A DNA stretch of 49,855 nt from Flavisolibacter longurius (lineage in GTDB: Bacteria > Bacteroidota > Bacteroidia > Chitinophagales > Chitinophagaceae). The DNA lies in NCBI GenBank assembly GCA_014163555.1, contig JACJGO010000032.1, forward strand, positions 1-49,855. The letters are read 5' to 3'. Both the position numbers and the translations under genes were made by a program. The notes beneath the pieces were generated by a model, which worked only from the letters and a program-made list of their open reading frames with translations, did not search any database and was not told the DNA's origin. This document shows positions 15,842-44,565 of the stretch, in pieces (within the stretch, counting starts at the first letter, position 1; each line of letters begins with the position of its first letter).

Positions 15842-15904
15842 TTAGCCATTCGCTTTTAGCCACTAGCTAAAAGTTGTATGATTGTGCTAACGGCTTACAG
15901 CTAA
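15842..15904. repeat. Inverted heptad array A (folP / DUF1599 divergent region)
   Basis: Left arm, in seven-base steps from 15842: TTAGCCA, TTCGCTT, TTAGCCA, CTAGCTA. Right arm 15884-15904, read on the opposite strand from its far end: TTAGCTG, TAAGCCG, TTAGCAC. The words share the core TAGC in constant phase and are inverted between arms, with a 14-base spacer. The right arm ends 12 bases before the DUF1599 start. Confidence 0.6.
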
Positions 15905-15916
15905 TCACTAAAGACC

Positions 15917-16459
15917 ATGTCCACCATCGAACAGTACAATCAGGTTATCAGAACGTGTGAAGATATTTTTTTAAAAAAGACAACCGATTATGGCACGGCA
16001 TGGCGTGTCCTCCGCACCATTTCTATTGTTGATCAGATTTATATCAAAGCCTACCGCATTCGCACCCTACAGGAAGTAGGGGAGCAAAAAGTTGGCGATG
16101 ATATTCCGGGTGAATTTATCGGCATTATCAATTACGCTGTTATCGGGCTTATCCAGTTGGAATTGACGGAAACTGATGAAGAAGAATTGTCGACGGCCAC
16201 AGTAAAAGTCTTTTACGACAAATACATTGAAAAAGCACAAAATCTGATGCAGGCAAAAAACCATGATTATGGTGAGGCCTGGCGGCAAATGAGTCAGGAA
16301 AGTTTTGTGGACCTTATTCTGATGAAACTGCAGCGTATGCGGCAGATCCTTTCCAACAAAGGAAAAACCCTGATCAGTGAAGGCCTGGATGCCAATTATT
16401 ACGACTTGATCAATTACGCTGTGTTTGCGCTTATCTTACAAAACGAATCGAAAACCTGA
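15917..16459 (+). CDS. DUF1599 domain protein with internal duplication
   Basis: A 180-residue cytosolic protein made of two copies of the DUF1599 unit (also called nucleotide modification associated domain 1). Copy one spans about 20-83 and copy two 113-175; matching landmarks are DYGTAWR (24-30) with DYGEAWR (117-123) and IINYAV (70-75) with LINYAV (164-169). The biochemical role in Bacteroidota is not established. It lies 5 bp before the BT_3928-type gene, a neighbour pair I recall as conserved in Bacteroidota. Confidence 0.88.
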   Translation: MSTIEQYNQVIRTCEDIFLKKTTDYGTAWRVLRTISIVDQIYIKAYRIRTLQEVGEQKVGDDIPGEFIGIINYAVIGLIQLELTETDEEELSTATVKVFYDKYIEKAQNLMQAKNHDYGEAWRQMSQESFVDLILMKLQRMRQILSNKGKTLISEGLDANYYDLINYAVFALILQNESKT

Positions 16460-16464
16460 CCGCT

Positions 16465-17640
16465 ATGCGCATTGCCGTAAAAGCCGTTCAACTGATTGTT
16501 GGATTCCTGTTTATTATCTCAGGCCTGGTAAAGGCAAATGATCCCATTGGTCTCAGCTATAAAATGCAGGAATTTTTTGAGTTGTGGTTAGCAGGCTTTT
16601 CTTCGGGATCGTTTGTAGCCAATGCACTGGCAGCTATGCACGGGGCATCGTTGGGACTCTCCATCTTTATGATCACGTTGGAAATTGTTGCTGGCGTTGC
16701 GTTGTTGTTAGGATGGAGGAAAAGAGCTGTGCTTTGGTTGCTGTTGGCACTCATTGTCTTCTTTACATTCTTAACAGGTTATGCCTATCTCTCCGGTAAG
16801 TTTACCAACTGCGGTTGCTTTGGCGATTGCCTTCCCATTACACCGTTTGCCTCTTTCCTGAAAGACATTGCACTCTTGGCCCTGATTGTTTTTTTGCTGA
16901 TCGGTCAAAAACATATCCGGCCTGTATTAACACCCGGCATACGAACCGCAGTGTTAAGCATCAGTCTTATCTTCAGCCTGGCCCTGCAATGGTATGTCCT
17001 CAACAATCTGCCGATTGCTGATTGCCTGCCTTTTAAAAAGGGTAATAACCTGTCTGCGCAAATGAAGCCGCCACCGGGTGCGGTGCCTGATAGTTTTGCC
17101 ATCCGGTTTATTTATGAAAAGGAGGGAAAACAATATGAATTTGCACCCGAAAGTTTACCCGATGATTTTACTACCTACAAATTCATCGACCGCAAGCAAA
17201 CCCTCATTCGCAAAGGCAATGCCGATGCGCCCATCAAAGGTTTTACCTTAACCAATGAAGCAAAAGATTCCATAACAGGAAACACGGTGGATTATACGTC
17301 GGAACTTCTTTCTGCAACAAGAGCAATTATCATTTTTGCACTTCACTTCGATAACCCCAAATGGGTAAATGAAACAAAGCCGCTCATTCAGGCAGCAACA
17401 AAACAAGGCATACCGGTTGCGGTGGCTTCTTCCAATTTTACAAGTGCAAAAGAAGCCTTTGAAAATGCAGCCGTGACTGGCGTGCAGTTTTACAATACGG
17501 ATTTTACCATTGTAAGAACGGTTGCCCGAACCAATCCCACCATACTTTATCTGGAGAACGGGACCGTCGTAAAAAAATGGAGCGAAAACGACCTGTCTGA
17601 AAGCGCTGCATGGTTTTCTGAACCGGGAAAAAAAGACTAG
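16465..17640 (+). CDS. BT_3928-type DoxX/MauE-like membrane protein
   Basis: A 391-residue protein with four N-terminal membrane segments (about 5-23, 62-82, 88-108 and 130-145) of the DoxX/MauE fold, including the cysteine cluster CGCFGDC (116-122) typical of MauE-like redox partners, another membrane segment near 152-172, and a soluble C-terminal domain of about 200 residues carrying a thioredoxin-like pattern (AIIIFALHFDNP, GIPVAVASSN, PTILYLENG) without a CxxC. The family is named from Bacteroides; its function is not established. A role in periplasmic thiol or quinone chemistry is inference from the MauE resemblance. Three bases separate it from the permease gene. Confidence 0.82.
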   Translation: MRIAVKAVQLIVGFLFIISGLVKANDPIGLSYKMQEFFELWLAGFSSGSFVANALAAMHGASLGLSIFMITLEIVAGVALLLGWRKRAVLWLLLALIVFFTFLTGYAYLSGKFTNCGCFGDCLPITPFASFLKDIALLALIVFLLIGQKHIRPVLTPGIRTAVLSISLIFSLALQWYVLNNLPIADCLPFKKGNNLSAQMKPPPGAVPDSFAIRFIYEKEGKQYEFAPESLPDDFTTYKFIDRKQTLIRKGNADAPIKGFTLTNEAKDSITGNTVDYTSELLSATRAIIIFALHFDNPKWVNETKPLIQAATKQGIPVAVASSNFTSAKEAFENAAVTGVQFYNTDFTIVRTVARTNPTILYLENGTVVKKWSENDLSESAAWFSEPGKKD

Positions 17641-17643
17641 CCT

Positions 17644-18690
17644 GTGTTGACATTTATCCTTCGCAAATTAGCGTACGGTCTGTTGGTGCTCATCGGCGTC
17701 GTCATCCTGGTGTTTGTCCTCTTCCAGGGTTTTGGCGATCCCTCGCGGCTGGTGATGGGACAAACTGGCGATGCCAAAACACAGGAAAATATCCGGCGTG
17801 AATTATACCTGGATCAACCCAAGTGGAAACAGTTTCTGTTTTATCTCAACGACATTTCACCGCTTTCTATTCATACAATAGAAGAAATTTCAGCAAAAGA
17901 ATTAAAAGGCGTTTTTATCGGTGGTGAAACAAAATTGGCCGTGAAGCTGCCATACCTGCGAAAGTCGTATCAAACCAAAAAGCCGGTTGGAGCGGTGTTG
18001 ATGGAAGCGTTACCCGGTACGCTGATGCTGGCGTTTGCAGCCATGGCCATTGCTGTCATCATTGGCATTCCGCTGGGTGTGCTGGCGGCTGTGAAGCAAA
18101 ATACTTGGATGGATACGTCAGCGGTTTTTGCCTCGATTGTAGGCATCTCGGCGCCCTCGTTTTTTATGGCCATTATCATGGCTTATTTGTTTGGATTTGT
18201 GTGGAGCGACTGGACAGGTTTACACATAACCGGAAGCTGGTTTGACATTGATTCGGAAGGAGCACGCCGCTTAACGCTTCAAAACCTGATTTTACCTGCA
18301 TTCACACTGGGCATCCGGCCCTTGGCGATCATCACTCAATTGACCCGCAGCGCCATGCTGGATGTGCTGGACCAGGATTATATCCGCACGGCGTATGCAA
18401 AAGGCTTAAGCCGCAGCACCGTTATCTGGAAACATGCGTTGCGCAATGCTTTAAACCCCGTGATTACGGCCATTACCGGTTGGTTTGCCGAACTGCTGGC
18501 CGGTGCGTTTTTTATCGAATGGATATTTGGATGGAAAGGCATTGGCAAAGTCACAGTCGATGCATTGGAAAAGCTGGACTTTCCTGTTGTGATGGGTTCT
18601 GTATTGGTTTCCGCTACTTTCTTTATCCTCGTGAATGTTTTGGCCGATGTTCTATATGGCGTAGTGGACCCTAGGGTTCGGGTGAAATAG
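17644..18690 (+). CDS. ABC transporter permease, OppB/DppB type
   Basis: A 348-residue inner-membrane permease: N-terminal membrane segment (10-32), then about 65 soluble residues, then the family core (GALPGTLMLAFAAMAIAVIIG onwards), five more membrane segments and the EAA loop region (RTAYAKGLSRSTVIWKHALRNALNP, near 245-270). It starts at GTG 17644 or the next codon, TTG 17647; no ATG fits. Oligopeptide or nickel uptake is the usual role of such permeases, as a heterodimer with a second permease. No partner permease, ATPase or binding protein lies nearby. Confidence 0.88.
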   Translation: MLTFILRKLAYGLLVLIGVVILVFVLFQGFGDPSRLVMGQTGDAKTQENIRRELYLDQPKWKQFLFYLNDISPLSIHTIEEISAKELKGVFIGGETKLAVKLPYLRKSYQTKKPVGAVLMEALPGTLMLAFAAMAIAVIIGIPLGVLAAVKQNTWMDTSAVFASIVGISAPSFFMAIIMAYLFGFVWSDWTGLHITGSWFDIDSEGARRLTLQNLILPAFTLGIRPLAIITQLTRSAMLDVLDQDYIRTAYAKGLSRSTVIWKHALRNALNPVITAITGWFAELLAGAFFIEWIFGWKGIGKVTVDALEKLDFPVVMGSVLVSATFFILVNVLADVLYGVVDPRVRVK

Positions 18691-18773
18691 TTTGCGCTTC
18701 TTTCAGGGTTGAAACACTGAAACAAATTAAAAAATATTCAACCTCAGCCAAAGGAATGTTAACCCGAATAGGC

Positions 18774-18781
18774 TATCTTTA
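18774..18781 (+). promoter_or_regulatory. -7-like element TATCTTTA before the CBS gene
   Basis: One-base variant of TAnnTTTG, 48 bases before the ATG at 18830. Confidence 0.3.
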
Positions 18782-18829
18782 GGAACAAGCCATAACCTTA
18801 CACCAATTTCCTAACATTAAAACTGTGCT

Positions 18830-19273
18830 ATGGAACAAGTAGCAGAACTTTTGACCCGCATGTATCCGCAGTTTAATACTGCTTCCGCTAACTGCCTTGT
18901 AAGCGATGCACTTTACCAGATGTGTTGCGAGAATGTAGATTACCTGATCATAATGGAGGACAACAAATTCATGGGCATTATAACCGACCATGATATTGCC
19001 TCCCGGATTCTGTTTGAAAACCGGCCTTTGAACCAGATTGAAGTACGAGAGTTTATGAACACCGCATTGCCGGTGGCTACTCCTGAAACTTCGTTGCAAC
19101 ATTGCATGAAACTGATGGAGCGTTACAATGTACGGCACCTGGCCATTTACGACCATTTTGATTTCAAAGGCGTGGTATCAAGTTATGAATTGATGCAGGA
19201 AGCGTTGAACAAACGCAGCGGGCTCTTTGAAGAAGATGAGCCGCCGCGGCAAGGATACCCTTGGAATTATTGA
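18830..19273 (+). CDS. Two-CBS-domain protein
   Basis: A 147-residue soluble protein with a Bateman pair of CBS domains (about 12-70 and 75-135); GIITDHDIASRI and DFKGVVSSYELMQ are the usual strand-helix signatures. CBS pairs bind adenine nucleotides or related ligands and regulate other domains; here nothing else is attached, so it is a stand-alone sensor. Its stop overlaps the stop of the leftward DUF721 gene by seven bases. Confidence 0.88.
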   Translation: MEQVAELLTRMYPQFNTASANCLVSDALYQMCCENVDYLIIMEDNKFMGIITDHDIASRILFENRPLNQIEVREFMNTALPVATPETSLQHCMKLMERYNVRHLAIYDHFDFKGVVSSYELMQEALNKRSGLFEEDEPPRQGYPWNY

Positions 19274-19548
19274 ATAACAATGTCCTCAATCACCTTTTCA
19301 CCCAAAGCTTCGTTTACACGAAGCTTTATTTTTTCCTTTTGATAGAGAAGTTCTTGTTTGAGGGGAGCAACGTTGGTGGTAATAAAAAGTGTTTTGTTGA
19401 TCACCTTAATTTTTTCGGTGTATTTGGCAATGGTCTTACCCATTACTTTTTCCCACACTTCTTCAATCTGGTAAGCTTGTATGGAACCTTTCAGACGGCT
19501 TTGCGCCAGGTAAAGCTTGATGGCATCGCCAATGGAGTATTGTCCCAT
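19267..19548 (-). CDS. DUF721 (DciA-like) protein
   Basis: A 93-residue protein with the DUF721 pattern (IEEVWEKVMGKTIAKYTEKI, then LFITTNVAPLKQELLYQKEKIKLRVNE). DUF721 includes DciA, the helicase operator of bacteria lacking DnaC/DnaI; Bacteroidota proteins are short versions and their role as helicase loaders is inference. TACCTTCA (19553-19560, read leftward), a variant -7 element, ends four bases before the ATG. Confidence 0.85.
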   Translation of the reverse strand: MGQYSIGDAIKLYLAQSRLKGSIQAYQIEEVWEKVMGKTIAKYTEKIKVINKTLFITTNVAPLKQELLYQKEKIKLRVNEALGEKVIEDIVIQ

Positions 19549-19573
19549 GCGGTGAAGGTAAGGAGAAGTTGGG

Positions 19574-19794
19574 AGTTTGGGGTTTGGGGTTAGGCGTTTG
19601 GGGTTGGCGTAAATAGTAGAAAAATCTTTTTCCTGCGAGTTCTTTTCAATAAACAGAAATGAATGAAATGATTCCCGCTAATGAAAAAGATGTCCTATCC
19701 GGAACGTATTCAACATAAGTTTTGCCTGTATTCGAGCAGTCACATCAACCTGAATAACCCCCAAAGCCAAACGCCAAACCCCAAACCCCAAACC
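19574..19794. repeat. Inverted heptad array B
   Basis: Left arm 19574-19609 and right arm 19759-19794 are inverted copies matching at 31 of 36 positions, 149 bases apart. In seven-base steps the left arm reads GTTTGGG, GTTTGGG, GTTAGGC, GTTTGGG, GTTGGCG; the right arm, on the other strand, reads GTTTGGG, GTTTGGG, GTTTGGC, GTTTGGC and then breaks phase. The right arm ends three bases beyond the redoxin stop, and the left arm begins 26 bases upstream of the DUF721 start. The region between has no coding sign. Confidence 0.75.
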
Positions 19795-19797
19795 TTG

Positions 19798-20397
19798 TTA
19801 CTTAACCCGCTTGATACCGCAACCAACCGAACGGGTTTTGGTAAGAGAAACATCTTTTCCGTTCAGCATTTCATCCATGGCCAGCCAAAGATGTTTGCGT
19901 TGTACACTGGATTCATTGGGATTGTCGTCAATAGCGCCATGATAAACCAGTTTGCCTTCTTTGTTGAACAGGAAATTTTCCGGTGTACGGGTGGCGCCAA
20001 AAGCATCCGCCAGTTTGTTGGCATCATCCACAACATAATACCAGTTGAATTGCTGCTCCTTAGCATATTCTTTCATGGCTTCAAACGAATCATCGCCATC
20101 CCGTTCGGCAGCGTTCGAATTGACCAGAATAACGCCAACATCATTTTTCATGGCATAGGCGGCAATATCGCGGGTACGCTGCTGGTTCTTTTTTACATAC
20201 GGGCAGGTGTTGCAACTAAACATCACCAGTACACCATTTTTCCTGACGGCATCTTTCAAGGAAACGTTTTTGCCACTAACATCTTTCATCTTCACATCGG
20301 CAAGAGGCATCGTAGCTCCAATGGGCAATTCGGCAGGCGGCGCAAACGATACAAGCACAATGAAGGCCAGGCTGCAAAGCAGGACTATTTTTTTCAT
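19798..20397 (-). CDS. Secreted redoxin (thioredoxin-like) protein
   Basis: A 199-residue AhpC/TSA-type redoxin with an N-terminal signal peptide (MKKIVLLCSLAFIVLVSFA). The redox centre is C62-N-T-C65 in VMFSCNTCPYVKKN; PENFLFNKEGKLVYHGAIDD is the usual cis-proline strand region. It should act in the periplasm as a thiol oxidoreductase or peroxidase-like protein; the exact partner is unknown. Related proteins are often annotated as alkyl hydroperoxide reductase. Its stop codon abuts the right arm of array B, which may shape its mRNA end. Confidence 0.88.
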   Translation of the reverse strand: MKKIVLLCSLAFIVLVSFAPPAELPIGATMPLADVKMKDVSGKNVSLKDAVRKNGVLVMFSCNTCPYVKKNQQRTRDIAAYAMKNDVGVILVNSNAAERDGDDSFEAMKEYAKEQQFNWYYVVDDANKLADAFGATRTPENFLFNKEGKLVYHGAIDDNPNESSVQRKHLWLAMDEMLNGKDVSLTKTRSVGCGIKRVK

Positions 20398-20497
20398 ATA
20401 AAAATCGTTTGGCTAAAGTTCCGTAAAATACCGTTTGTGCTATTGCCATTGGTGTAGCAAAACCCTTCTTTCATCAAACAATCCGGTGTCCCCCGCT

Positions 20498-21535: not shown

Positions 21536-21550
21536 AACGCTTCAAAATAA

Positions 21551-21580
21551 CAAAAAACCCTGCCGGGAAAGCAGGGTTTG
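21551..21580 (-). terminator. Intrinsic terminator after secG
   Basis: Stem AAACCCTGC / GCAGGGTTT with a seven-base loop and, read leftward, a run of T. It closes the miaB-secG operon. Confidence 0.75.
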
Positions 21581-21604
21581 TAAAATATCGTTTTGTGGAA
21601 ATGG

Positions 21605-23007: not shown

Positions 23008-23024
23008 AGAAGGGGCAAGTTACA

Positions 23025-26950: not shown

Positions 26951-29359
26951 ATGCGGCTTTTGTTCTTCATTTTACTATTTGTCACCCTCAAAGTTTCTGC
27001 CCAGGAAGGTGTGATTGGAGGAACGGTGTTGGATGATAAGAACAAGCCATTGGAAAGTGCAACTGTACAGATTGCGTTACTTGGCAGTGCGTCTTTTCAA
27101 AAAACGTCTTCCTCGGATGGAACTGGCGGTTTTCTTTTTTCAGGATTGCCCATGGGGTATTACCGCTTGGTTGTTTCCTATGTGGGGTTGCAAAACCTGA
27201 CCATCGACAGCATTTACCTGCGTCCGGATCGATTCGATTTTCAACTGGGCGAACTGGTAGTAAAACCAAAGGAAACCGCAGGCCTGAACGAGATCATCAT
27301 CTACGCTGAGAAACCCCTGATTCAAAGCAAAGACGGGAACATCACCTTTAATGTGAGTGAATCGGCAACAAGCCAGGGCAGCAATGCCAGTGACCTGCTG
27401 ACACAGGTGCCCCTGGTTTCAAAGGACGCTGATGGTAAGGTAACCGTTCGCGGCAAAGAACCAAAGATACTCATCGATGACAAGCCGGTGGAGATGAATG
27501 CGCAGCAATTGCAGGACCTGCTGGAATCGCTTCCCGGGAATGCGATTGAAAAGATTGAGGTCATGACCAACCCACCACCGCAATATGCCAACGAGCAGGG
27601 TGGTGTAATCAATATTGTTACCCGCAAGGGAACCGTAGGCTTTAATGGCCGGTTAAATGTGTATGCCGGTACCCGCGGCGAAAAAGGATCGAATGCGCAT
27701 TTCACTTACCGCAAAACCGGGCTTTCTATAAATATCAATGGCGGAATTTCGGATAATGATTACCGTGGGATGGGCTATTCGATAAGGCAGAACCTGTACG
27801 CAGATAGTTCAAACTTTTTTAAAACAAACAACCAGTACAATAACAGCTCTCTTCGTCCCAACTTCCGCGCTTCGGTTGATTACGAGATTACAAAAGAGCA
27901 CCAGTTGAATTTTGTGGCGCAGATTAATCAAAACCGGTCCAACAACACCAGCACCACCGAATTTCGAAATATTAATCGTTTTGATGAATTGTACCGGCTG
28001 AGCAACCGTTCGGTGAGCAGCCAAAACCAGAACAGGAACACGAACCTGGCCCTGAATTATACGTTTCGCAGCCATCGTCCCGGTGAAGTATTGCGGGTGT
28101 TCACCAGTTACTGGGCAGGCGACCAATCCTCGGACCGACTGTTCTTTCAACAATTTTTCCGGCCTGATTATACGCCAACCGGTTACGACAGCACCAACCA
28201 GCAGGTGAACGGCACCGAAAATACCGGCTACAATGTACGGGTAGCCTACGACCGGCCCATTGTTGGACAAAAAACATTTTTATCAGTTGGTAGTTATTTC
28301 ACACATTCGGCTTCGGATGTAAGGGTTGATGCCGCTTACAAAAACAAGTTGGACGGCACATTTCTGCCGCTTGACCTGCAAAGCAATTTTTTCCTGTTTA
28401 ACCAGGATATTACCAATTTCCGCCTTTCGGTAAAACAGGTATTTCAGCCCGACTTTAGTTCAACGGCCGGTGTGTCGGAAGAGCAAACGGTGATTCACTT
28501 TGACCTGCTGAAAGCGGGAAAGGACACATCAAACCGTTATTGGACCCTGTTGCCGTTTTTTAATCTCAGCAAAACCTGGGGCGATGTCAACCTTTCGGTT
28601 GCGTACCGAAAATCCATTCGCCGGCCGGGTGTGAATGAGCTCAACCCCACGAGGGACTATTCCGATCCATTTAATACAAGAGGCGGCAATCCCGGTTTGT
28701 TGCCTTCCACCGCCGATAATTTTGACCTGGTAATCGGGCGGTCGAAAAATTCGCTTTATACCAATCTAGGACTCGGTTACAATAAAGTACATACCGTTTT
28801 TAGCCCGATTCGCAGCTTGCTAGGTGATGGCACTACGCAAACGATCTGGCAAAACATCAGCGGGAAACGGGAATATGAAGCGAGTATGTGGAGTGGTTAC
28901 ACCGTGGCCCGGAAGCTGCGTTTCAATGTAAGCGCCAGTTATGTTTACAACCGGTACAGTGATTACGATAAACAGCATCGCCGGTACCGGGATGCCGGTT
29001 CATTTACTTCGAACCTGAATGTAAACTACACCTTCAAACAAAATTTTACCACCACCGGGAACCTGAGCTTCAACCGGTTTGCCAGTCCGCAAGGAGTAGC
29101 CCGCAGTACTGTGAATACAAATATTGGCCTGCAGGCAAGGCTGCTAAAAAGAAAACTGACACTGGCCCTGAATATGACCGATCCTTTCTTCCAGTTGCGC
29201 AACCGCAACTTTACATACGGGCCCAATTTTATCCTGGAAAATTTCAACAATACGCAAACGCGGAACTTTCGCCTGAGTGTAGGCTATGGCTTTTCAAAAA
29301 CCACCACCAAGCGGCAAACCGCTACGGAGAAGGCGGTTCAGAATCTGATAAAAAGCTAG
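26951..29359 (+). CDS. TonB-receptor-like outer-membrane beta-barrel protein
   Basis: An 802-residue outer-membrane protein: signal peptide (residues 1-17, ending VSAQ), a carboxypeptidase-regulatory-like beta domain (about 20-100; GVIGGTVLDDKNKPLESATV), a plug domain (about 125-225; LLTQVPLVSKDADGKVTVRG) and a barrel of the OMP_b-brl_3 type to the C-terminus. No SusD-like partner or TonB-box is evident, so the ligand is unknown and the protein is not a SusC homologue. Such proteins are common in Chitinophagaceae, often next to regulatory genes, which is not so here. Confidence 0.9.
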   Translation: MRLLFFILLFVTLKVSAQEGVIGGTVLDDKNKPLESATVQIALLGSASFQKTSSSDGTGGFLFSGLPMGYYRLVVSYVGLQNLTIDSIYLRPDRFDFQLGELVVKPKETAGLNEIIIYAEKPLIQSKDGNITFNVSESATSQGSNASDLLTQVPLVSKDADGKVTVRGKEPKILIDDKPVEMNAQQLQDLLESLPGNAIEKIEVMTNPPPQYANEQGGVINIVTRKGTVGFNGRLNVYAGTRGEKGSNAHFTYRKTGLSININGGISDNDYRGMGYSIRQNLYADSSNFFKTNNQYNNSSLRPNFRASVDYEITKEHQLNFVAQINQNRSNNTSTTEFRNINRFDELYRLSNRSVSSQNQNRNTNLALNYTFRSHRPGEVLRVFTSYWAGDQSSDRLFFQQFFRPDYTPTGYDSTNQQVNGTENTGYNVRVAYDRPIVGQKTFLSVGSYFTHSASDVRVDAAYKNKLDGTFLPLDLQSNFFLFNQDITNFRLSVKQVFQPDFSSTAGVSEEQTVIHFDLLKAGKDTSNRYWTLLPFFNLSKTWGDVNLSVAYRKSIRRPGVNELNPTRDYSDPFNTRGGNPGLLPSTADNFDLVIGRSKNSLYTNLGLGYNKVHTVFSPIRSLLGDGTTQTIWQNISGKREYEASMWSGYTVARKLRFNVSASYVYNRYSDYDKQHRRYRDAGSFTSNLNVNYTFKQNFTTTGNLSFNRFASPQGVARSTVNTNIGLQARLLKRKLTLALNMTDPFFQLRNRNFTYGPNFILENFNNTQTRNFRLSVGYGFSKTTTKRQTATEKAVQNLIKS

Positions 29360-29379
29360 GGAACGGACAGCTAACGTCT

Positions 29380-31242: not shown

Positions 31243-31360
31243 CCAAATGTAAAAACAGAAAAAAGGCAGGTAAAAACAACGGTGAAATCGCATCCGGTCA
31301 CCGATGCAAAACAATGCTATGCCGGTTTTGACTTTTTCCTTTTGACTTTTGCTTTTACCT
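31243..31360. repeat. Heptad array E (Fe-S / ATP-grasp divergent region)
   Basis: Right arm 31326-31360 is five seven-base words: TTTTGAC, TTTTTCC, TTTTGAC, TTTTGCT, TTTACCT. The left part (about 31247-31281) is A-rich and on the opposite strand holds TTTACCT and TTTACAT in compatible steps, so the arms look inverted, though the left arm is poorly conserved. The last right-arm word forms part of the -7-like TACCTTGC (31356-31363) six bases before the ATP-grasp start. Confidence 0.5.
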
Positions 31361-31369: not shown

Positions 31370-32428
31370 ATGAAAAACTGGAAACGTATCTGGGAAAAGT
31401 GGACCAACTGGGAACTCTGGCCCTTTAATGTAATCTATGCACCGCTGGGTCCCTTGTGGTTATGGTATGCAGTCAAAGCCAAAAATTTCTGGTTTTTCAC
31501 GCCTACGGACCCTACCCTGACGTTTGCCGGTTTTGAAGGGGAGGGCAAAAAAGAAATGTATGAGCTTTTACCCGAAGGCATGTATCCGAAAACGGCGTAT
31601 GTCGGTCCTGCACAACCGTTTGAAGAAATAAAAACCATCGTTGCGCAAAAAGGCTTTACCTATCCTTTGTGTGTGAAACCCGAAAGCGGCTTGAAAGGAT
31701 TGTTGTTCAGAAAAGTGGACAGCGAGGAAAAATTATTGGCCTACCACCAGCGGGTACCTGTTGAGTACATCATCCAGGAACTGGTGGAAGCACCGCTTGA
31801 AGTCAGCGTGTTTTATTATCGCTATCCGGCCCAGCAAAAGGGCACCATTAGCGGGTTTATTCAAAAGGAAATGATGCACCTTTTTGGTGATGGAAAACAT
31901 ACGTTGTGGGAACTGATCCAGCAACATCCCAAAGCCAAGCACCGCCTTGAAGAAATGCGGATCAAACATGAACAACATTTGCAAACGGTTATACCTAACG
32001 GTGAAAAATATATTTTAACGCATGCTGCAAACCTGAATAGGGGAGCAAGATTTACTAACCTGCATGCATTGATTGATGAACGCCTGCGGGAGATTTTCGA
32101 TCCGCTGAGTCATCGTTGCCAGTTTTATTACGGCCGTTATGACCTGAAATGCAACAGTATTGAAGAACTGAAGCAAGGAAAATTTATCATCCTTGAATTT
32201 AATGGAACAGGAGCGGAGCCCAACCATGTGTACAATGCTGGATTTTCGTGGAGAAAAGCTTTATCGGAATTTGCCCGTCACTGGAAAGTGATGTACGAAA
32301 TTGGAAGGTACAACAACCGGCATAAAGGCGTACGGTATTGGAGTAACAGGGAGGGCTACCGGTTTTTGCAGCAGGCCCGCAAACATGCCGCCATCCTGGA
32401 AAAAGCCGACCGGGAAATTCTTATTTGA
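31370..32428 (+). CDS. ATP-grasp domain protein
   Basis: A 352-residue protein of the ATP-grasp fold, which joins a carboxylate to an amine or other nucleophile with ATP. Visible are the ATP-binding lysine region YPLCVKPESGLKG (about 102-115), the VEYIIQELVE strand (around 135) and the metal-site segment FIILEFNGTGAEPNH (near 290-304). The N-terminal 60 residues contain a tryptophan-rich amphipathic stretch (WTNWELWPFNVIYAPLGPLWLWY) that may lie on a membrane. The substrate is unknown; peptide or sugar-conjugate ligases are possible. The frame opens at 31349 but MKNWKRIWEK at 31370 is the better start. Confidence 0.8.
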   Translation: MKNWKRIWEKWTNWELWPFNVIYAPLGPLWLWYAVKAKNFWFFTPTDPTLTFAGFEGEGKKEMYELLPEGMYPKTAYVGPAQPFEEIKTIVAQKGFTYPLCVKPESGLKGLLFRKVDSEEKLLAYHQRVPVEYIIQELVEAPLEVSVFYYRYPAQQKGTISGFIQKEMMHLFGDGKHTLWELIQQHPKAKHRLEEMRIKHEQHLQTVIPNGEKYILTHAANLNRGARFTNLHALIDERLREIFDPLSHRCQFYYGRYDLKCNSIEELKQGKFIILEFNGTGAEPNHVYNAGFSWRKALSEFARHWKVMYEIGRYNNRHKGVRYWSNREGYRFLQQARKHAAILEKADREILI

Positions 32429-37598: not shown

Positions 37599-37630
37599 AA
37601 AATGCCGGTTTTGACCGGCATTTTTTATTT
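37597..37630. terminator. Terminator after the VWA gene
   Basis: Perfect stem AAAAAATGCCGGT / ACCGGCATTTTTT with a four-base loop. A-run and T-run on both sides make it bidirectional; it also lies beyond the leftward small membrane protein. Confidence 0.85.
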
Positions 37631-37668
37631 CCTGTATCGTGAAAATAAAGTATAAGAATCCGAAAGGC

Positions 37669-37818: not shown

Positions 37819-37834
37819 TGCTGGAAAATTTTGG

Positions 37835-37842
37835 CAAAAATA
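37835..37842 (-). promoter_or_regulatory. -7 element TATTTTTG before the small membrane protein
   Basis: Exact TAnnTTTG match read leftward, 16 bases before the ATG at 37818. Confidence 0.45.
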
Positions 37843-37973
37843 GGCGAGGAGCCGAAATGGCAAAGTATATTTTTTAAAGCGCTTCACTCCAACCCGATAC
37901 ATGACATCCTTTTCTTATTTTCGCCGGAGTGTCATATGTACACGATTCATAACCTTCTGCAATTGCTATACTC

Positions 37974-40664
37974 ATGAAGATCGAGTTTTATTTACGGTTC
38001 AGGACAACATACGGACAGGCGGTTTTTGTAAGCGGTAACCTTATTTCGCTGGGCAGCAACCAGCCGGCAAAAGCGTTTCCGTTGCAGTACCTGAACGACG
38101 AGTTTTGGTATGGTGCGATAGAGACTGATCCCGCTGAAGTGGGTGCACTGCATTACCGTTATATTTTTACCAACGAAAAAGGGGAAACCATCACGGAGGG
38201 TGAACAGCACCGTTCGATTGACTTTCACAAGACCACCGGTGACCTCCTCCTTATCGATAGCTGGAACGATGAAAGCTTTTATGAAAATGCTTTTTATACC
38301 GCACCCTTCCAAGAAGTGTTTTTGAAAGAAAAAGGCAAGGGAAAAGCAAAAAAGGAAGAAAAGTTTACCCACCTCTTTAAAGTAAAAGCACCGTTGTTGC
38401 AGCCCAACGAAGCCATTTGTTTACTGGGTAGCACAGCCGCTTTTGGTTCTTGGGATATGGCAGCACCGCTGTTGCTAACCAAGAAAGGAGCCTGGTGGAC
38501 ACTGACGCTGAATCTTACCAACACCGCCTTGCCGGCTTCGTACAAATATGGCGTGGCGAATGCGGAGACTGGAGAATTCCTGCGATTTGAAACGGGTGAT
38601 AACCGTGTTTTGTTCAGCAACGACATCGTAAACAAAAAAACAATAGTACATGATGCTTTTGTTCGCCTGCCCAACACTACCTGGAAAGGGGCCGGCGTGG
38701 CCATTCCGGTTTTCAGTTTGCGCAGCCAAAACAGTTTTGGTATCGGTGAATTTCTCGACATCAAGTTGCTGGCCGACTGGGCCAAAGAAACGGGTTTGAA
38801 ATTGATTCAGCTTTTACCGGTTAACGATACCTCCGCAACTTTTACCTGGAAAGACAGTTATCCCTATGCAGCCATTTCTGCTTTTGCGCTTCACCCCATT
38901 TACATCAACCTGCAAAAGGTCGCGGGCAAAAAGGGATTGCAAAAAGTAAAGTCCCTGACCAATACGCAAAAGGCATTGAATGCTTTGCCGGAAGTGGAAT
39001 ACGACGAGGTTATTCGCATTAAGCTGAATGTGCTGCAGGAACTTTATGACGCCGATGACATGGCCTTCCTGCAGGAGACTCCTTTCCTTGAATTCTTCGA
39101 CGATAACAAAACCTGGCTGGTACCGTACGCCGCTTTTTGTTATTACCGCGACAAAAACAAAACAGCCGATTTTTCGCAGTGGAAAACCGGTGCGGTTTAC
39201 AACGAAGCGGAAGTAGCCAAACTTACCTGTGCCAAATCGAAAAGCTATAAGCAGATTGCGTTTTTCTATTTTGTGCAATACCATCTTCACCTGCAACTAA
39301 AAGAAGCGGTAGATTATGCCCACAAAAAAGGACTGGCCATCAAAGGCGATATTCCGATTGGTATCTATCGCAATGGTGCCGATGCCTGGACCGCTCCTGA
39401 ATTGTACAACATGCACATGCAGGCCGGTGCGCCTCCGGATGATTTTGCCGTGAAAGGCCAGAACTGGGGTTTCCCTACCTACAACTGGCAGAAGATGGAG
39501 GAAAATCATTTCGAGTGGTGGAAGCAACGTTTCCACCAGATGAGCAATTATTTTGATGCCTTCCGCATTGATCATATCCTGGGCTTTTTCCGCATCTGGA
39601 GCATTCCTACTGACAGTGTGGAAGGAATTATGGGTCGGTTTATTCCGGCCTTACCGGTAAGCGTACACGAATTTGGCGAGTGGGGCATCTGGTTTGATTA
39701 CGACCGTTTCTGCAAGCCGTTTATCATTGATGCCATCCTGTACCAGCGGTTTGATGGGTTAACGCAGTATGTAAAAGAAACTTTTCTCGATAACAACGAC
39801 AGGGGTGGATTCGACCTGAAAGCAGAATTCAATACCCAACGGAAGGTGCAGGCCTATTTTGCTGAGCAGTCGCAAACCGGAGATAACGAAACGCTGAAAG
39901 GTGGTCTTTTTGACCTGATCAGCAACGTGCTGCTTTTTGAAGAGGAAGGCACCAACCGGCAGGCGTTTCACTTTCGCATATCGATGGAAGATACCACTTC
40001 GTTCCAGCACCTGGACGAGGGCACAAAGCAGAAACTAAAAGACCTGTACGTAAATTATTTCTTCCGCCGGCAGGATGAGTTCTGGAAAGGCGAAGCCCTA
40101 AAAAAGCTACCGGCGTTGAAAGAATCCACCAATATGTTGATTTGCGGCGAAGACCTGGGTATGGTGCCGCACAGCGTACCGGAAGTGATGCAGCGACTGA
40201 GTATTTTAAGCCTGGAAGTACAGCGCATGCCGAAGGACCCGACCATTGAATTTTTCCATCCCCGCAATGCTCCTTATCTATCTGTAGTGACGCCTTCCAC
40301 CCATGATATGAGCACCATCCGAGGCTGGTGGGAAGAAGACAGGGATCGGACCCAACGCTTCTTTAATCACCTGATGGGCGAGTGGGGACCAGCACCATAT
40401 TATTGCGAGCCCTGGGTGAACCGTGCCATTGTGCTGCAGCACCTGTATTCGCCGGCCATGTGGAGCATCTTCCAGTTGCAGGATATTTTAGGCATGAGCG
40501 GTGAACTGCGCAGGGAAAACCCAGCGGAGGAACGCATTAACCTTCCGGCAAACCCGCAGTATTACTGGAACTACCGCATGCATATTCCGCTGGAACAACT
40601 TATTGACGAAGCAAACTTCAACAACGAACTGAAAGATTATATCACCAACAGCGGAAGGGCTTGA
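37974..40664 (+). CDS. malQ: 4-alpha-glucanotransferase with two CBM20 domains
   Basis: Amylomaltase/disproportionating enzyme of family GH77, moving alpha-1,4-glucan segments between chains in maltodextrin or glycogen metabolism. At 896 residues it is much longer than E. coli-type MalQ because two starch-binding CBM20 domains (about 1-100 and 125-235; FGSWDMAAPLLLTKKGAWW in the second) precede the GH77 barrel. The nucleophile is D533 in FRIDHILGFFR and the acid/base E726 in CGEDLGMVP. GH77 also contains an insertion (about 560-700). This is the DPE2-like form found in plants and some Bacteroidota. No signal peptide: cytosolic. Confidence 0.95.
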   Translation: MKIEFYLRFRTTYGQAVFVSGNLISLGSNQPAKAFPLQYLNDEFWYGAIETDPAEVGALHYRYIFTNEKGETITEGEQHRSIDFHKTTGDLLLIDSWNDESFYENAFYTAPFQEVFLKEKGKGKAKKEEKFTHLFKVKAPLLQPNEAICLLGSTAAFGSWDMAAPLLLTKKGAWWTLTLNLTNTALPASYKYGVANAETGEFLRFETGDNRVLFSNDIVNKKTIVHDAFVRLPNTTWKGAGVAIPVFSLRSQNSFGIGEFLDIKLLADWAKETGLKLIQLLPVNDTSATFTWKDSYPYAAISAFALHPIYINLQKVAGKKGLQKVKSLTNTQKALNALPEVEYDEVIRIKLNVLQELYDADDMAFLQETPFLEFFDDNKTWLVPYAAFCYYRDKNKTADFSQWKTGAVYNEAEVAKLTCAKSKSYKQIAFFYFVQYHLHLQLKEAVDYAHKKGLAIKGDIPIGIYRNGADAWTAPELYNMHMQAGAPPDDFAVKGQNWGFPTYNWQKMEENHFEWWKQRFHQMSNYFDAFRIDHILGFFRIWSIPTDSVEGIMGRFIPALPVSVHEFGEWGIWFDYDRFCKPFIIDAILYQRFDGLTQYVKETFLDNNDRGGFDLKAEFNTQRKVQAYFAEQSQTGDNETLKGGLFDLISNVLLFEEEGTNRQAFHFRISMEDTTSFQHLDEGTKQKLKDLYVNYFFRRQDEFWKGEALKKLPALKESTNMLICGEDLGMVPHSVPEVMQRLSILSLEVQRMPKDPTIEFFHPRNAPYLSVVTPSTHDMSTIRGWWEEDRDRTQRFFNHLMGEWGPAPYYCEPWVNRAIVLQHLYSPAMWSIFQLQDILGMSGELRRENPAEERINLPANPQYYWNYRMHIPLEQLIDEANFNNELKDYITNSGRA

Positions 40665-40669
40665 TGTAA

Positions 40670-40743
40670 TTTACCGTTTGCAGTTTGCCGTTCACAGTTG
40701 ACATTGCCCAACAACGGTAAACCGGAAACGGTAAACGGTAAAC
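40670..40743. repeat. Inverted heptad array C (malQ / aroK)
   Basis: Left arm 40670-40702, in seven-base steps: TTTACC preceded by an A, then GTTTGCA, GTTTGCC, GTTCACA, GTTGAC. Right arm 40713-40743, on the other strand: GTTTACC, GTTTACC, GTTTCCG, GTTTACC, GTT. The arms are inverted around a ten-base spacer. The array begins six bases after the malQ stop and ends nine bases before the aroK start, filling the whole intergenic region. Confidence 0.75.
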
Positions 40744-40752
40744 TTTTAGCAA

Positions 40753-41259
40753 ATGAAAATATTTCTGATCGGATTCATGGGCTGCGGTAAAACCTACTGG
40801 GGAAAGCAGTTAAGCCAAAAATTGCAGATTCCGTTTTTTGACCTGGACAGCCTGATCGAAGAACGGGAAGGCAAAAGCGTTACCGCCATATTTGCCGAAA
40901 TGGGCGAGGAGTATTTCCGGATGCTGGAAAAAGACGTGCTGTACCTGGTAACGGAAAGCCACGAAAATTTTGTAATGGCCACCGGTGGCGGTACACCCTG
41001 CTTTTTTAATAACATCGATTACATGAAAAGCCGCGGAACCACCGTTTGGATCAACAGTACCGTGGACAGCCTGTACACCCGGCTGGTTAAGGAAAAAGAG
41101 ACGCGGCCCCTGATCCGCAGCATCCCCGACAACGAACTACGTTCTTATATCATCAAAAAATATTCGGACCGGAAAATATTTTACCAGCAGGCCAACACCA
41201 TCTTAAACGAGGAGGATGTTACCTTAGAGCGCCTGATTGAAAAAACCTTTCACGCCTGA
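40753..41259 (+). CDS. aroK: Shikimate kinase
   Basis: Phosphorylates shikimate at the 3-hydroxyl in aromatic amino acid synthesis. The 168-residue P-loop kinase has Walker A GFMGCGKT (7-14), the shikimate-binding aspartates in DLDSLIE (30-36), FRMLEKDVL (55-63), GGGTP (78-82) and the lid arginine region KEKETRPL. Length is normal. It is followed by the DUF423 gene after 5 bp and then ftsK. The start lies directly after array C, with only AAATTTTAGC-like sequence between. Confidence 0.95.
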   Translation: MKIFLIGFMGCGKTYWGKQLSQKLQIPFFDLDSLIEEREGKSVTAIFAEMGEEYFRMLEKDVLYLVTESHENFVMATGGGTPCFFNNIDYMKSRGTTVWINSTVDSLYTRLVKEKETRPLIRSIPDNELRSYIIKKYSDRKIFYQQANTILNEEDVTLERLIEKTFHA

Positions 41260-41264
41260 TACCT

Positions 41265-41651
41265 ATGCAGAAGATCTATTTAGTCATCGGAACGGTTTTG
41301 GCCGGACTGGGAGTTGCCCTTGGCGCTTTTGGTGCCCATGGATTGAAAAAAATTGTTTCACCGGAAAATGTGGCTACGTACCAAACAGGAGTGCAGTACC
41401 AGATGTATCATGCTTTTGCCCTGATCATCGTGGGCATTCTTTCCGAACGGATCGCCAATCACTATCTCTCTTATGCCGGTGTGTTGTTCGTGGCCGGTAT
41501 CGTTCTTTTCTCCGGTTCGCTCTACCTGATCGTCTCGCTTTATGCCATGAATAAAGCCGTTCCAACGGCCATTGGCATTTTGACACCCATTGGCGGACTT
41601 TTTTTCATACTGGGTTGGATCAGCCTTTTAATCAGCATTCTGAAGAAATAA
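41265..41651 (+). CDS. DUF423 membrane protein
   Basis: A 128-residue inner-membrane protein of the DUF423 family with four membrane segments and the family signature GAFGAHGLKK (20-29), then QTGVQYQMYHAFALIIVGIL. Its function is not known. It follows aroK by five bases and is probably co-transcribed with it; ftsK 68 bp on has its own promoter element. Confidence 0.92.
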   Translation: MQKIYLVIGTVLAGLGVALGAFGAHGLKKIVSPENVATYQTGVQYQMYHAFALIIVGILSERIANHYLSYAGVLFVAGIVLFSGSLYLIVSLYAMNKAVPTAIGILTPIGGLFFILGWISLLISILKK

Positions 41652-41706
41652 GACCAAAATTTTTCAGAAAACCCTTGCCCGGCCTGTGATTCACGGGGTC
41701 AATGAT

Positions 41707-41714
41707 TATCTTTG
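41707..41714 (+). promoter_or_regulatory. -7 element TATCTTTG before ftsK
   Basis: Exact TAnnTTTG match ending five bases before the ATG at 41720. It overlaps the codons after the upstream in-frame ATG at 41702, which therefore cannot be the start of this transcript. Confidence 0.6.
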
Positions 41715-41719
41715 ATTTT

Positions 41720-44485
41720 ATGGCTAACGAGCTTAAATCCAAACCGCCCAAAGTGGCTGAAAAACCGGAGAAGAAAGAAAAAGTGGCAAAGCCCAAAAAA
41801 GCTGCAAGCACCAAAACAACTGCCGGTACCGCATTTAAGAAGGAAAAAGAAGAGAAGGTTGACTTAAAAAAGCTGGCCCGTGACGAACGTACCCAAAAGA
41901 TCATGGGAACCGTTTCGCTGCTGGTGGCTACCTTTCTCGGCATTTCCTTTATCTCTTATTTTTTTACCTGGAAAGAAGATCAATCGCAGATCCTGAACGA
42001 GGGAATTGGTTTTTTGTTTAATGCCGAAACCAAGGTGGCCAACCTCCTGGGTCGCCTGGGTGCCTACATTTCCTTCCTGCTGATTCGCCAGGGCTTTGGA
42101 CTGGCGTCGTTTTTATTCTGCTGTTTCTTTTTTGTGGTCGGCATCAATAAAATTTCCGGCCGCAATGTCTATTCTATCTGGAAGAACCTGCGCTATGTAA
42201 CCGTGGGTCTGATTATCCTTTCCGTAGCCTTTGCCTACGCTTTCTCTGCTTTTGATAGCTTTTCATTCGGAGGCGAAGTGGGCGCCATGATCAAGGATTG
42301 GCTGGTAGGGCTGATCGGCAATGTGGGAACCGGTATTCTGCTCCTAGTGGTGGGTATCTCGTATATCATCTGGCAGTTCAATCCCTCGTTCGATGTTCCC
42401 ATCCGCAACAAAGAGGACGAAGACGGTGAGATTGATTATTCAGGTACCGAGGTTATCGATATTGTAGAAGAGCCGGAAGAAAAACCGGTTGTGGAAGAGA
42501 AAAAAGAGCAGCCGATTTCACCCATTGCCAAAGCTAAAAAAGCCGCCACAGGACCCACGATCAATGATCTTTATGCGGGAAAACCTCCGGTCGAAAAAGC
42601 CGCTGTTCCCAACGCCCTGAACGGCGATGGTGAGATGGTGCTGAGTATCAACCCCAGCAAAGAAGAAAAAGATTTCGGTTTCCAGGTTGTAGAAAAAGAT
42701 GAGCCCGAAGAGGAAGAAATTATTGAGGAAGAAGAGGAGATTATGCCGGTAGAAGAACCCGCCATTGAACCTGTAGTTGACGATATCCTTCACCAGGAAG
42801 AAGACCGCATGACCAAAGAGCTGCCCATTGAAGAACCGAAGATCTACGTTCAGGAACCCAAGCCGGCGAAAAGGATGGAGAAAGCGGCCGAAAGTTTTGA
42901 ACTGGAAATTAAAACGGTGGAAGAGGCTCCGGTTACAGACGAAGTAGGGGAGGAGCGCCAAAAAGATTACAGCGATCTGCCGCCATACGAACCGACGCTG
43001 GACCTCCGCGATTATAAATACCCAACTGTTGACCTCTTGGAGCAACACGGTAGCGAACGAATTGTGCAGGACCCGGCCGAGCTGGAGATGAACAAGAACC
43101 AGATCATCAACACCCTGAAAAACTACGATATTTCCATTCAGAAGATCAGTGCTACGGTAGGGCCAACCGTTACATTATACGAGATTGTGCCGGCCGCCGG
43201 TGTCCGGATCTCCCGGATTAAGAATCTGGAAGATGACATTGCCCTGAGCCTTGCGGCTCTTGGTATCCGTATCATTGCGCCCATTCCGGGTAAAGGAACC
43301 ATCGGTATTGAAGTGCCTAACGTGAAGAAGACCATCGTGAGCATGCGGACCCTGCTGAACGCGGAAAAATTCATTCACAACAACTACAGTCTGCCGATTG
43401 CCATTGGTAAAAAGATCGACAACGAAAACTTTATCGTTGACCTGGCTTCTATGCCACACTTGCTCATGGCCGGTGCAACGGGGCAGGGTAAATCGGTAGG
43501 ATTGAACGCTGTACTGGTATCGCTCCTGTACAAAAAGCACCCTTCGCAGCTGAAGTTTGTTCTCATCGATCCGAAGAAAGTTGAATTGAGTGTTTACCGC
43601 CATATCGAAAATCACTTCCTGGCCAAACTGCCCGGTGAAGAAGATGCTATCATTACCGATACCAAAAAAGTAATTCACACTCTGAATGCGCTTTGTATCG
43701 AGATGGACAACCGTTATGACCTGCTGAAAGAAGCTGGAACACGGAACATTAAAGAATACAACGAGAAATTCACCAAACGTCGCCTCAATCCGCAGAAAGG
43801 TCACCAATACCTGCCATTTATTGTGCTGGTAGTGGATGAGTTTGCCGACCTGATCATGACAGCCGGTAAAGAAGTGGAAATGCCGATTGCCCGCCTGGCG
43901 CAGCTGGCCCGTGCAGTGGGTATTCACCTGATCATTGCCACACAGCGTCCGTCGGTAAATATTATCACCGGTACCATCAAAGCTAACTTCCCCGCCCGTA
44001 TCGCCTTTAAAGTATCAAGCAAGATCGACAGCCGTACGATCCTTGATGCGGGTGGTGCCGAGCAACTGATTGGTAAGGGGGATATGTTGATTTCCTACAA
44101 TGGTGAAATTACCCGTCTGCAGTGTGCTTTTGTGGATACACCGGAAGTGGAGAAGATCGTTGACTTTATTGCGGACCAGCGGGGTTATCCGCAAGCCTTT
44201 CTCCTCCCTGAATATGTTGACGAAAAAGAGCTGGAAGGAAAAGATTTTGACACCAATGATAAAGACCCCTTGTTTGAAGATGCGGCAAAACTTATCGTGC
44301 AAAACCAGATTGGTTCTACTTCACTTCTCCAGCGCCGTATGAAACTTGGTTATAACCGTGCCGGCCGCCTGATGGATCAGTTGGAAGCTGCCGGTGTGGT
44401 AGGTCCCAACCTGGGCAGCAAGGCCCGTGAAGTGTTGATTAAGACAGATGCTGAATTGATGGAATTTTTTGAAACGCTGGGGTAG
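41720..44485 (+). CDS. ftsK: DNA translocase FtsK
   Basis: Septum-anchored dsDNA motor that segregates chromosome termini and activates XerCD recombination. The 921 residues have four N-terminal membrane segments (about 65-190), an acidic, proline-rich linker (about 220-420), the alpha/beta motor with Walker A GATGQGKS (585-592) and Walker B VVDEFADLI, and a C-terminal gamma winged helix (LLQRRMKLGYNRAGRLMDQLEAAGVVG). The short basic N-terminus is KPPKVAEKPEKKEK-like. The start is set by the -7 element before 41720. Confidence 0.96.
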   Translation: MANELKSKPPKVAEKPEKKEKVAKPKKAASTKTTAGTAFKKEKEEKVDLKKLARDERTQKIMGTVSLLVATFLGISFISYFFTWKEDQSQILNEGIGFLFNAETKVANLLGRLGAYISFLLIRQGFGLASFLFCCFFFVVGINKISGRNVYSIWKNLRYVTVGLIILSVAFAYAFSAFDSFSFGGEVGAMIKDWLVGLIGNVGTGILLLVVGISYIIWQFNPSFDVPIRNKEDEDGEIDYSGTEVIDIVEEPEEKPVVEEKKEQPISPIAKAKKAATGPTINDLYAGKPPVEKAAVPNALNGDGEMVLSINPSKEEKDFGFQVVEKDEPEEEEIIEEEEEIMPVEEPAIEPVVDDILHQEEDRMTKELPIEEPKIYVQEPKPAKRMEKAAESFELEIKTVEEAPVTDEVGEERQKDYSDLPPYEPTLDLRDYKYPTVDLLEQHGSERIVQDPAELEMNKNQIINTLKNYDISIQKISATVGPTVTLYEIVPAAGVRISRIKNLEDDIALSLAALGIRIIAPIPGKGTIGIEVPNVKKTIVSMRTLLNAEKFIHNNYSLPIAIGKKIDNENFIVDLASMPHLLMAGATGQGKSVGLNAVLVSLLYKKHPSQLKFVLIDPKKVELSVYRHIENHFLAKLPGEEDAIITDTKKVIHTLNALCIEMDNRYDLLKEAGTRNIKEYNEKFTKRRLNPQKGHQYLPFIVLVVDEFADLIMTAGKEVEMPIARLAQLARAVGIHLIIATQRPSVNIITGTIKANFPARIAFKVSSKIDSRTILDAGGAEQLIGKGDMLISYNGEITRLQCAFVDTPEVEKIVDFIADQRGYPQAFLLPEYVDEKELEGKDFDTNDKDPLFEDAAKLIVQNQIGSTSLLQRRMKLGYNRAGRLMDQLEAAGVVGPNLGSKAREVLIKTDAELMEFFETLG

Positions 44486-44487
44486 TA

Positions 44488-44565
44488 GTTCACTTGTTTA
44501 CAAGTTCACGAGTTCATGAGTTGTATTCATAACATGTAAACCTATGAACTTGTGAACAAGTGAAC
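44488..44565. repeat. Inverted octad array D (ftsK / lolA)
   Basis: Ten eight-base words fill 44488-44565. Left arm: GTTCACTT, GTTTACAA, GTTCACGA, GTTCATGA, GTTGTATT. Right arm, on the other strand from the far end: GTTCACTT, GTTCACAA, GTTCATAG, GTTTACAT, GTTATGAA. The arms meet without a spacer; the outer 16 bases pair at 15 of 16 positions, the inner words less well. It begins two bases after the ftsK stop. Confidence 0.8.

Follow-up and report, generated by a model that had tools for sequence, protein, structure and literature searches.

Several intergenic regions of one bacterial contig carry short, degenerate words in tandem, arranged as two arms in opposite orientation; are these a peculiarity of the contig or a property of the genome, and what keeps them in place? 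The contig is from Flavisolibacter longurius (C24; assembly G000, 5.66 Mb in 58 contigs) and was analyzed in its entirety, 49,855 bases, hereafter the window. A first-pass annotation had described inverted arrays of seven- or eight-base words at five intergenic sites. All five are present, at unequal strength (three strong, two weak), and paired inverted word arrays are a real, genome-wide feature of G000. We tentatively regard the arrays as a class of intergenic stem elements that would be kept as useful stems at gene borders, a reading that is based on correlations only and that we hold at somewhat less than even confidence.

Tandem words in inverted arms

Intergenic DNA was scanned by autocorrelation at periods 4 to 21, with dinucleotide shuffles as the control. 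Genes were called with our own codon-score script rather than a standard caller, and the array and terminator thresholds were of our choosing. The first scan covered the window and 20 further stretches of G000 (314 intergenic regions, 89.8 kb), 14 of the 20 having been picked for a match to a GTTTAC pattern. It returned 24 segments of period 7 and five of period 8 (0.1 each in shuffles), 18 segments of period 14, which is a multiple, and zero to two at every other period. The first-pass annotation had proposed a scan with shuffled controls, and the excess was also found in an array-blind sample of 26 stretches of 20 kb each (333 regions; six earlier and 20 later stretches), none of which has a listed match to the GTTTAC pattern and which, if anything, is poor in that word. 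This sample gave 24 segments against 0.2 expected, 14 of period 7 and 10 of period 8 (shuffles 0.1 each), in 21 of the 333 regions; other periods, multiples apart, gave zero or one. The claim of a constant word length therefore holds, as no periods other than 7, 8, and multiples of these stand out. Coding DNA of G000 yielded three period-7 segments in 351 kb. The full G000 set (41 pieces, 567 intergenic regions) contains 53 arrays in 43 regions.

Stretches of 23 other genomes gave 82 segments of period 7 and 35 of period 8, followed by the multiples 14, 16, and 21 and by at most six at any remaining period; arrays were absent from the stretches scanned in six of the 23 (G219, G200, G030, G034, G041, and G036). 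From 80 ftsK loci came 25 segments of period 7, nine of them from a single locus (L109), and nine of period 8; next, multiples apart, was period 9 with six. Arrays were rare (9 of 199 regions) in an order-level sample of 20 stretches, 18 of which are from other families.

An array was credited with an inverted or a direct partner when a match of score 10 or more lay in the same region. Inverted partners accompany 29 of the 53 G000 arrays and direct partners none, in keeping with the opposite orientation first described; control regions gave an inverted partner in 1.9% of 265 draws. This excess and the shuffle controls reject a chance origin of the arrays. In other genomes, 94 of 145 arrays have an inverted and 25 a direct partner, and we suspect two satellite-like loci as the source of the direct ones. 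One of these, L109:7694-8880 (a Chitinophagaceae metagenome-assembled genome), carries nine blocks of CGATGNN-type heptamers after ftsK, with starts 113-228 nucleotides (nt) apart (the last ones 122), and is an array of arrays. The other, L226 at about 8,870-9,320 (G110), is a 440-nt gap full of AAGGCNA and CCGGTAA heptamer runs, each up to about 120 nt and longer than most. The other-genome set used for partner, polarity, and terminator counts includes 77 ftsK loci; L051, L052, and L116 were dropped as they represent the same genomes as G014, G013, and G107, and further overlaps between the 77 loci and the numbered genomes are possible. The stretches of G014, G008, G003, G006, and G013 are partly orthologous to those of G000, so the polarity and terminator results of the two sets are not fully independent.

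The two arms of a site generally share their word, as had been reported: of 10 pairs of arrays that were detected independently in one region, 7 have a word in common, compared with 9.8% of 1368 cross-locus pairs. The reported closeness to start and stop codons was likewise recovered, with a median distance to the nearest gene edge of 8 nt against 25 nt at random placement (n = 53). The arms also have a polarity, which reads the same from either strand. In G000 the G-rich arm comes first in 16 cases and second in three (two equal), and in other genomes the ratio is 48 to 6 (six equal), whereas in gaps without arrays ordinary inverted repeats favor neither order (23 to 21 and 28 to 35). G+T richness of the first arm exceeds one half in 19 of 21 G000 cases (two equal) and is weaker in other genomes (41 to 17, two equal).

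The first-pass annotation held that each word was specific to its site and that only the architecture was shared; this part of the description has to be given up. The 53 arrays form 14 single-linkage word clusters, a number that varies with the cut-off, and the largest comprises 12 arrays at 10 loci. Similarity reaches 0.6 or more in 70 of the 1368 cross-locus word pairs, against a unit-permuted control mean of 12.2 (maximum 17 in 20 runs). In G000, among the matches listed with E values of at most 0.05, about 19 further places resemble the arms of the 19.6-kb element, and a whole-element search in G014 gave arm matches at about 30 other places among the matches listed; these counts, like those of the pattern searches below, were tallied by eye. 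The words are drawn from a limited set and are not site-specific. Nor are the five sites remnants of one known repeat family, since there are several word families and the window has no Rfam match at gathering thresholds.

The word unit seems to consist of six core bases and a one- or two-base linker. When linkers of 0-6 were allowed in a search for GTTYAC, 14 of the 16 listed among 29 G000 hits had linkers 2/2 and two had 1/1, and all 12 hits in G003 had 2/2. Such regular spacing would suit a DNA- or RNA-binding protein that recognizes the recurring core, each array then being a row of its sites. We rate this explanation as very improbable, given that the arrays of one genome fall into so many word clusters and that the word is exchanged at a site (see below).

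Searches with this single word at variable gaps were extended over the family and the phylum. At least one hit was found in 37 of 244 family genomes (reversed control, about 49) and in 26 of 296 genomes of a phylum draw (about 32). Because the reversed control hits no fewer genomes, the taxonomic spread of GTTYAC is not readable from the presence of a hit. Three or more hits occur in 12 family genomes (G000 has 29, G003 12, and G179 eight) against two in the control (G094 and G095), and high counts occur in five genomes of the phylum draw against two in the control. Some matches had other layouts. In G124 and G200, of one genus, GTTTAC recurs at period 11, spaced by 5-nt linkers and thus outside the 7/8 rule, in matches that may be coding. 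In G219 (C5:303901-304162) an identical 22-nt GTTYAC match recurs four times in 80-nt steps, which constitutes a larger tandem repeat, and in another family of the phylum (G507:C43:990-7001) ten matches to a GTTTACTG-type heptamer pattern lie on a single strand within about 6 kb.

Sites and words in related genomes

Comparison of the same loci in relatives, also proposed at first pass, used 111 gaps from five G000 pieces, with 93, 70, 41, 27, and 20 paired gaps in up to five relatives (G014, G008, G003, G006, and G013, respectively). In the closest of these, G014, 42 of 45 called genes of the window were matched in the same order, with a mean protein identity of 88%. The FtsK encoded in the window is 90% identical, over the best segment, to its counterpart in Flavisolibacter longurius BT320. 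Sites persist. G014 has an array at 11 of 12 G000 array sites and at 6 of 81 array-free sites (p = 2e-9); the corresponding counts are 6 of 11 and 4 of 59 in G008 (p = 6e-4) and 4 of 9 and 3 of 32 in G003 (p = 0.03). When G000 gaps of at least 60 nt alone were counted, persistence held in G014 (p = 1e-7) and G008 (p = 0.007).

The words fared differently. In an ungapped comparison the word was kept at 8 of 11 common sites in G014, at one of six in G008, and at none of four in G003. A gapped comparison of orthologous words, G000-G014 pairs left out, gave a median similarity of 0.30 for 22 pairs against 0.27 for the null (898 pairs; p = 0.18), and 4 of the 22 exceeded the null's 90th percentile. 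Beyond the closest species, the word at a kept site thus appears mostly to be a different one, on average no closer than the words of random sites, on numbers that, we stress, are small. The rapid turnover envisaged earlier is borne out between species, and gradual drift of the word is rejected as a general rule. In the L045 gap 2439-2520, for example, G000 and G014 share GGTGAGT, G008 has a GTTTGAC-type word, and G003 has a GTTCAC-type 8-mer. For the convergent L036 gap 8267-8359, the word is GTTTACC in both G000 and G014 and an 8-mer in G003; G006 has AGTAGC-type arms around a terminator (the left arm by eye), and G013 has the terminator only. Some switches are linker changes, because single cases keep the core and alter only the linker: G008 at L032 16928-17009 (GTTYAC+1 versus +2) and G003 at L036 8267-8359, and likewise G014 against G000 at L036 6176-6266 (GATATT+1 versus +2). 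At L032 14818-15043 the arrays compared between G000 and G003 lie at opposite ends of the gap, and a faint version of the G003 word can be made out by eye in G000 as well. A different, longer inverted repeat (ggcccatcccgaccttcccggtgggaaggccatc...) is found in L208 (G014; orthologous to L048:19001-19108) and L204 (G003; orthologous to L032:7428-7570), at positions that hold word arrays in relatives, and may represent a second dispersed element on the same sites.

One might suppose from these exchanges that position and mirror architecture are inherited and sequence is not, both arms switching together to another word of the set while the site stays occupied. We consider this unlikely. If it were true, an active process would overwrite both arms with an unrelated word and selection would act on the fold alone; the overwriting would be by arm-to-arm and locus-to-locus copying or by a dedicated word-writing enzyme.

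Loops between arms diverge faster than other intergenic DNA. Between G000 and G014, loop identity is 0.62 or less at eight of nine sites and 0.70 at the ninth (five of the loops are shorter than 40 nt in both or one species), against a median of 0.76 for 44 array-free gaps.

New arrays also arise. The L036 gap 6176-6266 measures 90 and 103 nt, against 1-2 nt between the genes in four relatives, and a new array is also seen behind ftsK, where six relatives have none (see below). At window 29359-29379, G014 has a filled gap and G000 an empty one. These three cases, in which the counterpart gap is short or empty in another species, and the scatter of words over many loci are what a mobile cassette would produce, a hairpin inserted whole and replacing older ones after being moved in trans by a transposase, as repetitive extragenic palindrome (REP) doublets forming hairpins (REPINs) are by REP-associated tyrosine transposases (RAYT). 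Other observations make this improbable. Among the matches listed for the two whole elements searched, only the arms match elsewhere, and no loop-confined match below E 0.02 was found (best 0.027 and 0.044), one arm match in the G000 search extending about 25 nt into the loop. A cassette with a common loop is rejected for these two elements, and among the matches listed they lack the conserved internal sequence that a miniature inverted-repeat transposable element has between its inverted ends. No target duplication was discernible by eye in the six gaps compared, which are too short or too diverged. Y1_Tnp is present in 16 of 20 genomes, including G000, and missing in G024, G179, G219, and G034; yet G024 has arrays in two of nine regions, which rejects RAYT as a requirement, and G179 has its eight GTTYAC hits against none for the reversed control. 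The patchy distribution of GTTYAC gives the cassette no support, because the reversed control hits as many genomes.

Stem function and neutral origin

Terminators, short GC-rich stems with a U tract behind them, were defined by a pattern of our own and in G000 were counted anywhere in non-divergent regions of at least 50 nt. A U-tract terminator occurs in 6 of 39 array regions of G000 against 118 of 353 array-free ones (p = 0.028), and in 13 of 89 against 189 of 728 in other genomes (p = 0.019). With only 6 of 39 regions holding one, the arrays are not ordinary intrinsic terminators, and this identity is rejected. Arrays are also scarcer in divergent gaps, both in G000 (4 of 118 versus 39 of 449, a difference given without a p value) and in other genomes (13 of 262 versus 93 of 998, p = 0.024). 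The scarcity of terminators and the small number of arrays in divergent gaps speak for a role at transcript ends. The reading as stem elements also draws on the restriction to two periods, the excess of inverted partners, the persistence of sites, the differing words, the diverging loops, and the stable RNA folds at four window sites. We suggest that selection would preserve a site for the stem itself, whatever its sequence, as a useful structure between genes, where it might act in the manner of the hairpins of REPs and bacterial interspersed mosaic elements (BIMEs), as a stop at the mRNA 3′ end, a brake on decay, or a transcription insulator in the absence of a U-tract terminator. One arm would grow by polymerase slippage of a single unit, its partner would be made and kept alike by template switching over a hairpin or cruciform, and words might move between loci by short-homology copying.

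Several observations weigh against a selected stem. The nearest gene edge is a start codon for 27 arrays and a stop codon for 26, which a pure 3′-end role does not predict. No inverted partner exceeds threshold for 24 of the 53 arrays, and 3 of the 10 same-region array pairs have different words. Most sites are missing in G006 (kept at one of five; 1 of 22 otherwise) and G013 (0 of 4; 0 of 16), and persistence in G003 falls to p = 0.12 once G000 gaps under 60 nt are set aside. Inspection by eye shows arms in some gaps that stand on either side of an ordinary terminator rather than in its place (G000 L032 gap 7428-7570; G006 L036 gap 8267-8359). Terminator stems in G000 lean C first (90 to 51 of 166), opposite to the G-first arrays; under an alternative definition they have no polarity (10 to 7 in G000; 10 to 10 in other genomes).

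The even split between starts and stops, the unpartnered arrays, and the fast turnover of loops and words speak for a neutral or selfish product of replication, in which slippage and template switching would make and remake arrays in gaps between genes, where an insertion costs little, selection would play no part, and persistence would be a hot-spot effect. The literature points the same way, in that heptamers are reported to outnumber all other classes of such repeats in most genomes and polymerase slippage has been suggested (available portions of PMC4679880 and PMC4692102). We regard this origin as a serious, if doubtful, possibility. Common sites carry a different word in five of six cases in G008 and four of four in G003 (ungapped), against an array rate of 7-9% elsewhere, which argues against it, bearing in mind that two of these cases are linker changes and one concerns opposite gap ends; the reduced number of terminators in array regions, found in two data sets, argues in the same direction. 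The functional stem is rated only slightly above the neutral origin, because arrays lie as close to starts as to stops and terminator stems lean the other way in polarity, both of which weigh against it.

Window sites and known repeat systems

Repeat and folding tools agree in finding the window sites at 19.6, 40.7, and 44.5 kb strong and those at 15.8 and 31.3 kb weak; RNA folds are stable (z -3.6 or lower) at four of the five. Coordinates are collected in the table.

Arms of the word arrays at the five window sites
Site	Feature	Coordinates	Strand	Word and position
15.8 kb	Short hairpin, weak site (arms 15839-15854, 15858-15873)	15839..15873	.	14-nt repeat GCTTTTAGCCAYTM
19.6 kb	Left arm	19568..19605	+	GTTTGGG heptamers
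19.6 kb	Right arm	19756..19793	-	GTTTGGG word inverted
31.3 kb	Left partner, poor	31270..31287	-	18 nt, 78% complementary; fold z -1.5
31.3 kb	Single clear arm	31326..31358	+	TTTTGAC-type heptamers
40.7 kb	Left arm	40670..40700	+	GTTTACC heptamers, 5 nt past end of gene 37974-40664 (Pfam Glyco_hydro_77)
40.7 kb	Right arm	40712..40742	-	GTTTACC word inverted, precedes gene at 40753 (Pfam SKI, shikimate kinase)
44.5 kb	Left arm	44484..44522	+	8-mer GTTCAC+NN, directly 3′ of FtsK stop codon (Pfam FtsK domains, 41702-44485)
44.5 kb	Right arm	44531..44569	-	GTTCAC+NN word inverted; next gene LolA (Pfam LolA, 44685-45350)

The 15.8-kb hairpin, with 16-nt arms that are 81% complementary (z -3.7 for a folded piece of 38 nt), has no period-7 segment over the scan threshold. 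It lies between the divergent genes 14971-15798 (- strand; Pfam Pterin_bind) and 15917-16459 (+ strand; Pfam DUF1599), and in the orthologous G014 gap one arm with a related word is marked and a second is visible by eye. At 19.6 kb, arms of 38 nt (84% complementary) enclose 150 nt (z -7.0) between two - strand genes (Pfam DciA and Redoxin), and GTTTGGG is also found at the orthologous G014 site. The clear arm at 31.3 kb stands just ahead of a gene at 31370 without a Pfam match, the other neighbor encoding a protein with cysteine-rich domains; G003 has another word, TTTTACA, at this place. Spaced by 11 nt, the 40.7-kb arms (31 nt, 81% complementary, z -3.6) have the same word in G014 and a different one in G003, and in G008 nothing exceeds threshold, with a weak ATTGC-type inverted pair visible by eye. 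The 8-mer arrays at 44.5 kb have arms of 25 nt that are 92% complementary and 36 nt apart (z -7.0). This ftsK-lolA gap contains GTTTGTR 7-mers in G014 and one ATTGCCN segment without a clear partner in G008; its array was not found in six relatives (G003, G006, G013, G002, G005, and G015).

REPs, BIMEs, and REPINs are likewise inverted pairs scattered between genes and able to form stems close to gene ends; each REP family is built on a single conserved palindrome and is associated with RAYT transposases. The present arms differ in being made of a tandem word that varies, and no single palindrome defines them. Correction of quasipalindromes by template switching has been proposed to perfect short imperfect palindromes. 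It resembles our scheme as a way, at the DNA level, of making two arms alike, and differs in that it was proposed for such short palindromes and not for tandem arrays with exchangeable words. PMC4060949 includes a passage on sequence-directed mutagenesis.

The first-pass statement that no inverted form had been described was too strong. In two species of Xanthomonas, 70 and 75 inverted pairs of GGGAATC heptamers in convergent orientation are known, according to the available portion of PMC4692102, which also covers GGGGAYT repeats of Nostoc. The likeness is considerable: as that portion describes them, the Xanthomonas repeats are degenerate, mostly intergenic, and near open reading frames; their convergent pairs have the G-rich arm first; they are scarcer between divergent than between convergent genes; and they lie mostly between the same genes in two species while varying greatly in length and sequence. 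That account concerns one G-rich word, for which G-quadruplexes are proposed, whereas here many words are found, 7- and 8-mers together, and one site can carry different words in different species; by inspection, most of the 14 clusters lack the G tracts of a quadruplex-type word. TAACTGA heptamers occur in Beggiatoaceae, some cyanobacteria, and five Bacteroidetes (available portion of PMC4679880) and are likewise intergenic, in tandem, and scattered over phyla. They differ as direct arrays of one word, mostly just ahead of start codons; of 170 sets in the genome examined there, one was inverted. Inverted heptamer pairs are thus already known for one word, and what differs here is the many words and their exchange at kept sites; a literature search of limited scope turned up no account of comparable inverted arrays with many words.

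Because neither word nor loop is conserved for long, the elements are nearly invisible to sequence-based comparison, which hardly detects them; periodicity, self-complementarity, and position reveal them. If the sites are under selection, they would amount to a large unannotated layer of gene-border structures in the group, given their frequency in the array-blind regions. If they are not, the arrays would document slippage and template switching as they occur in nature, with a sharp and unexplained bias toward units of seven and eight and toward a G-rich first arm. In both cases, the prominence of heptamers among the longer bacterial repeats becomes a question that can be tested with close species pairs.

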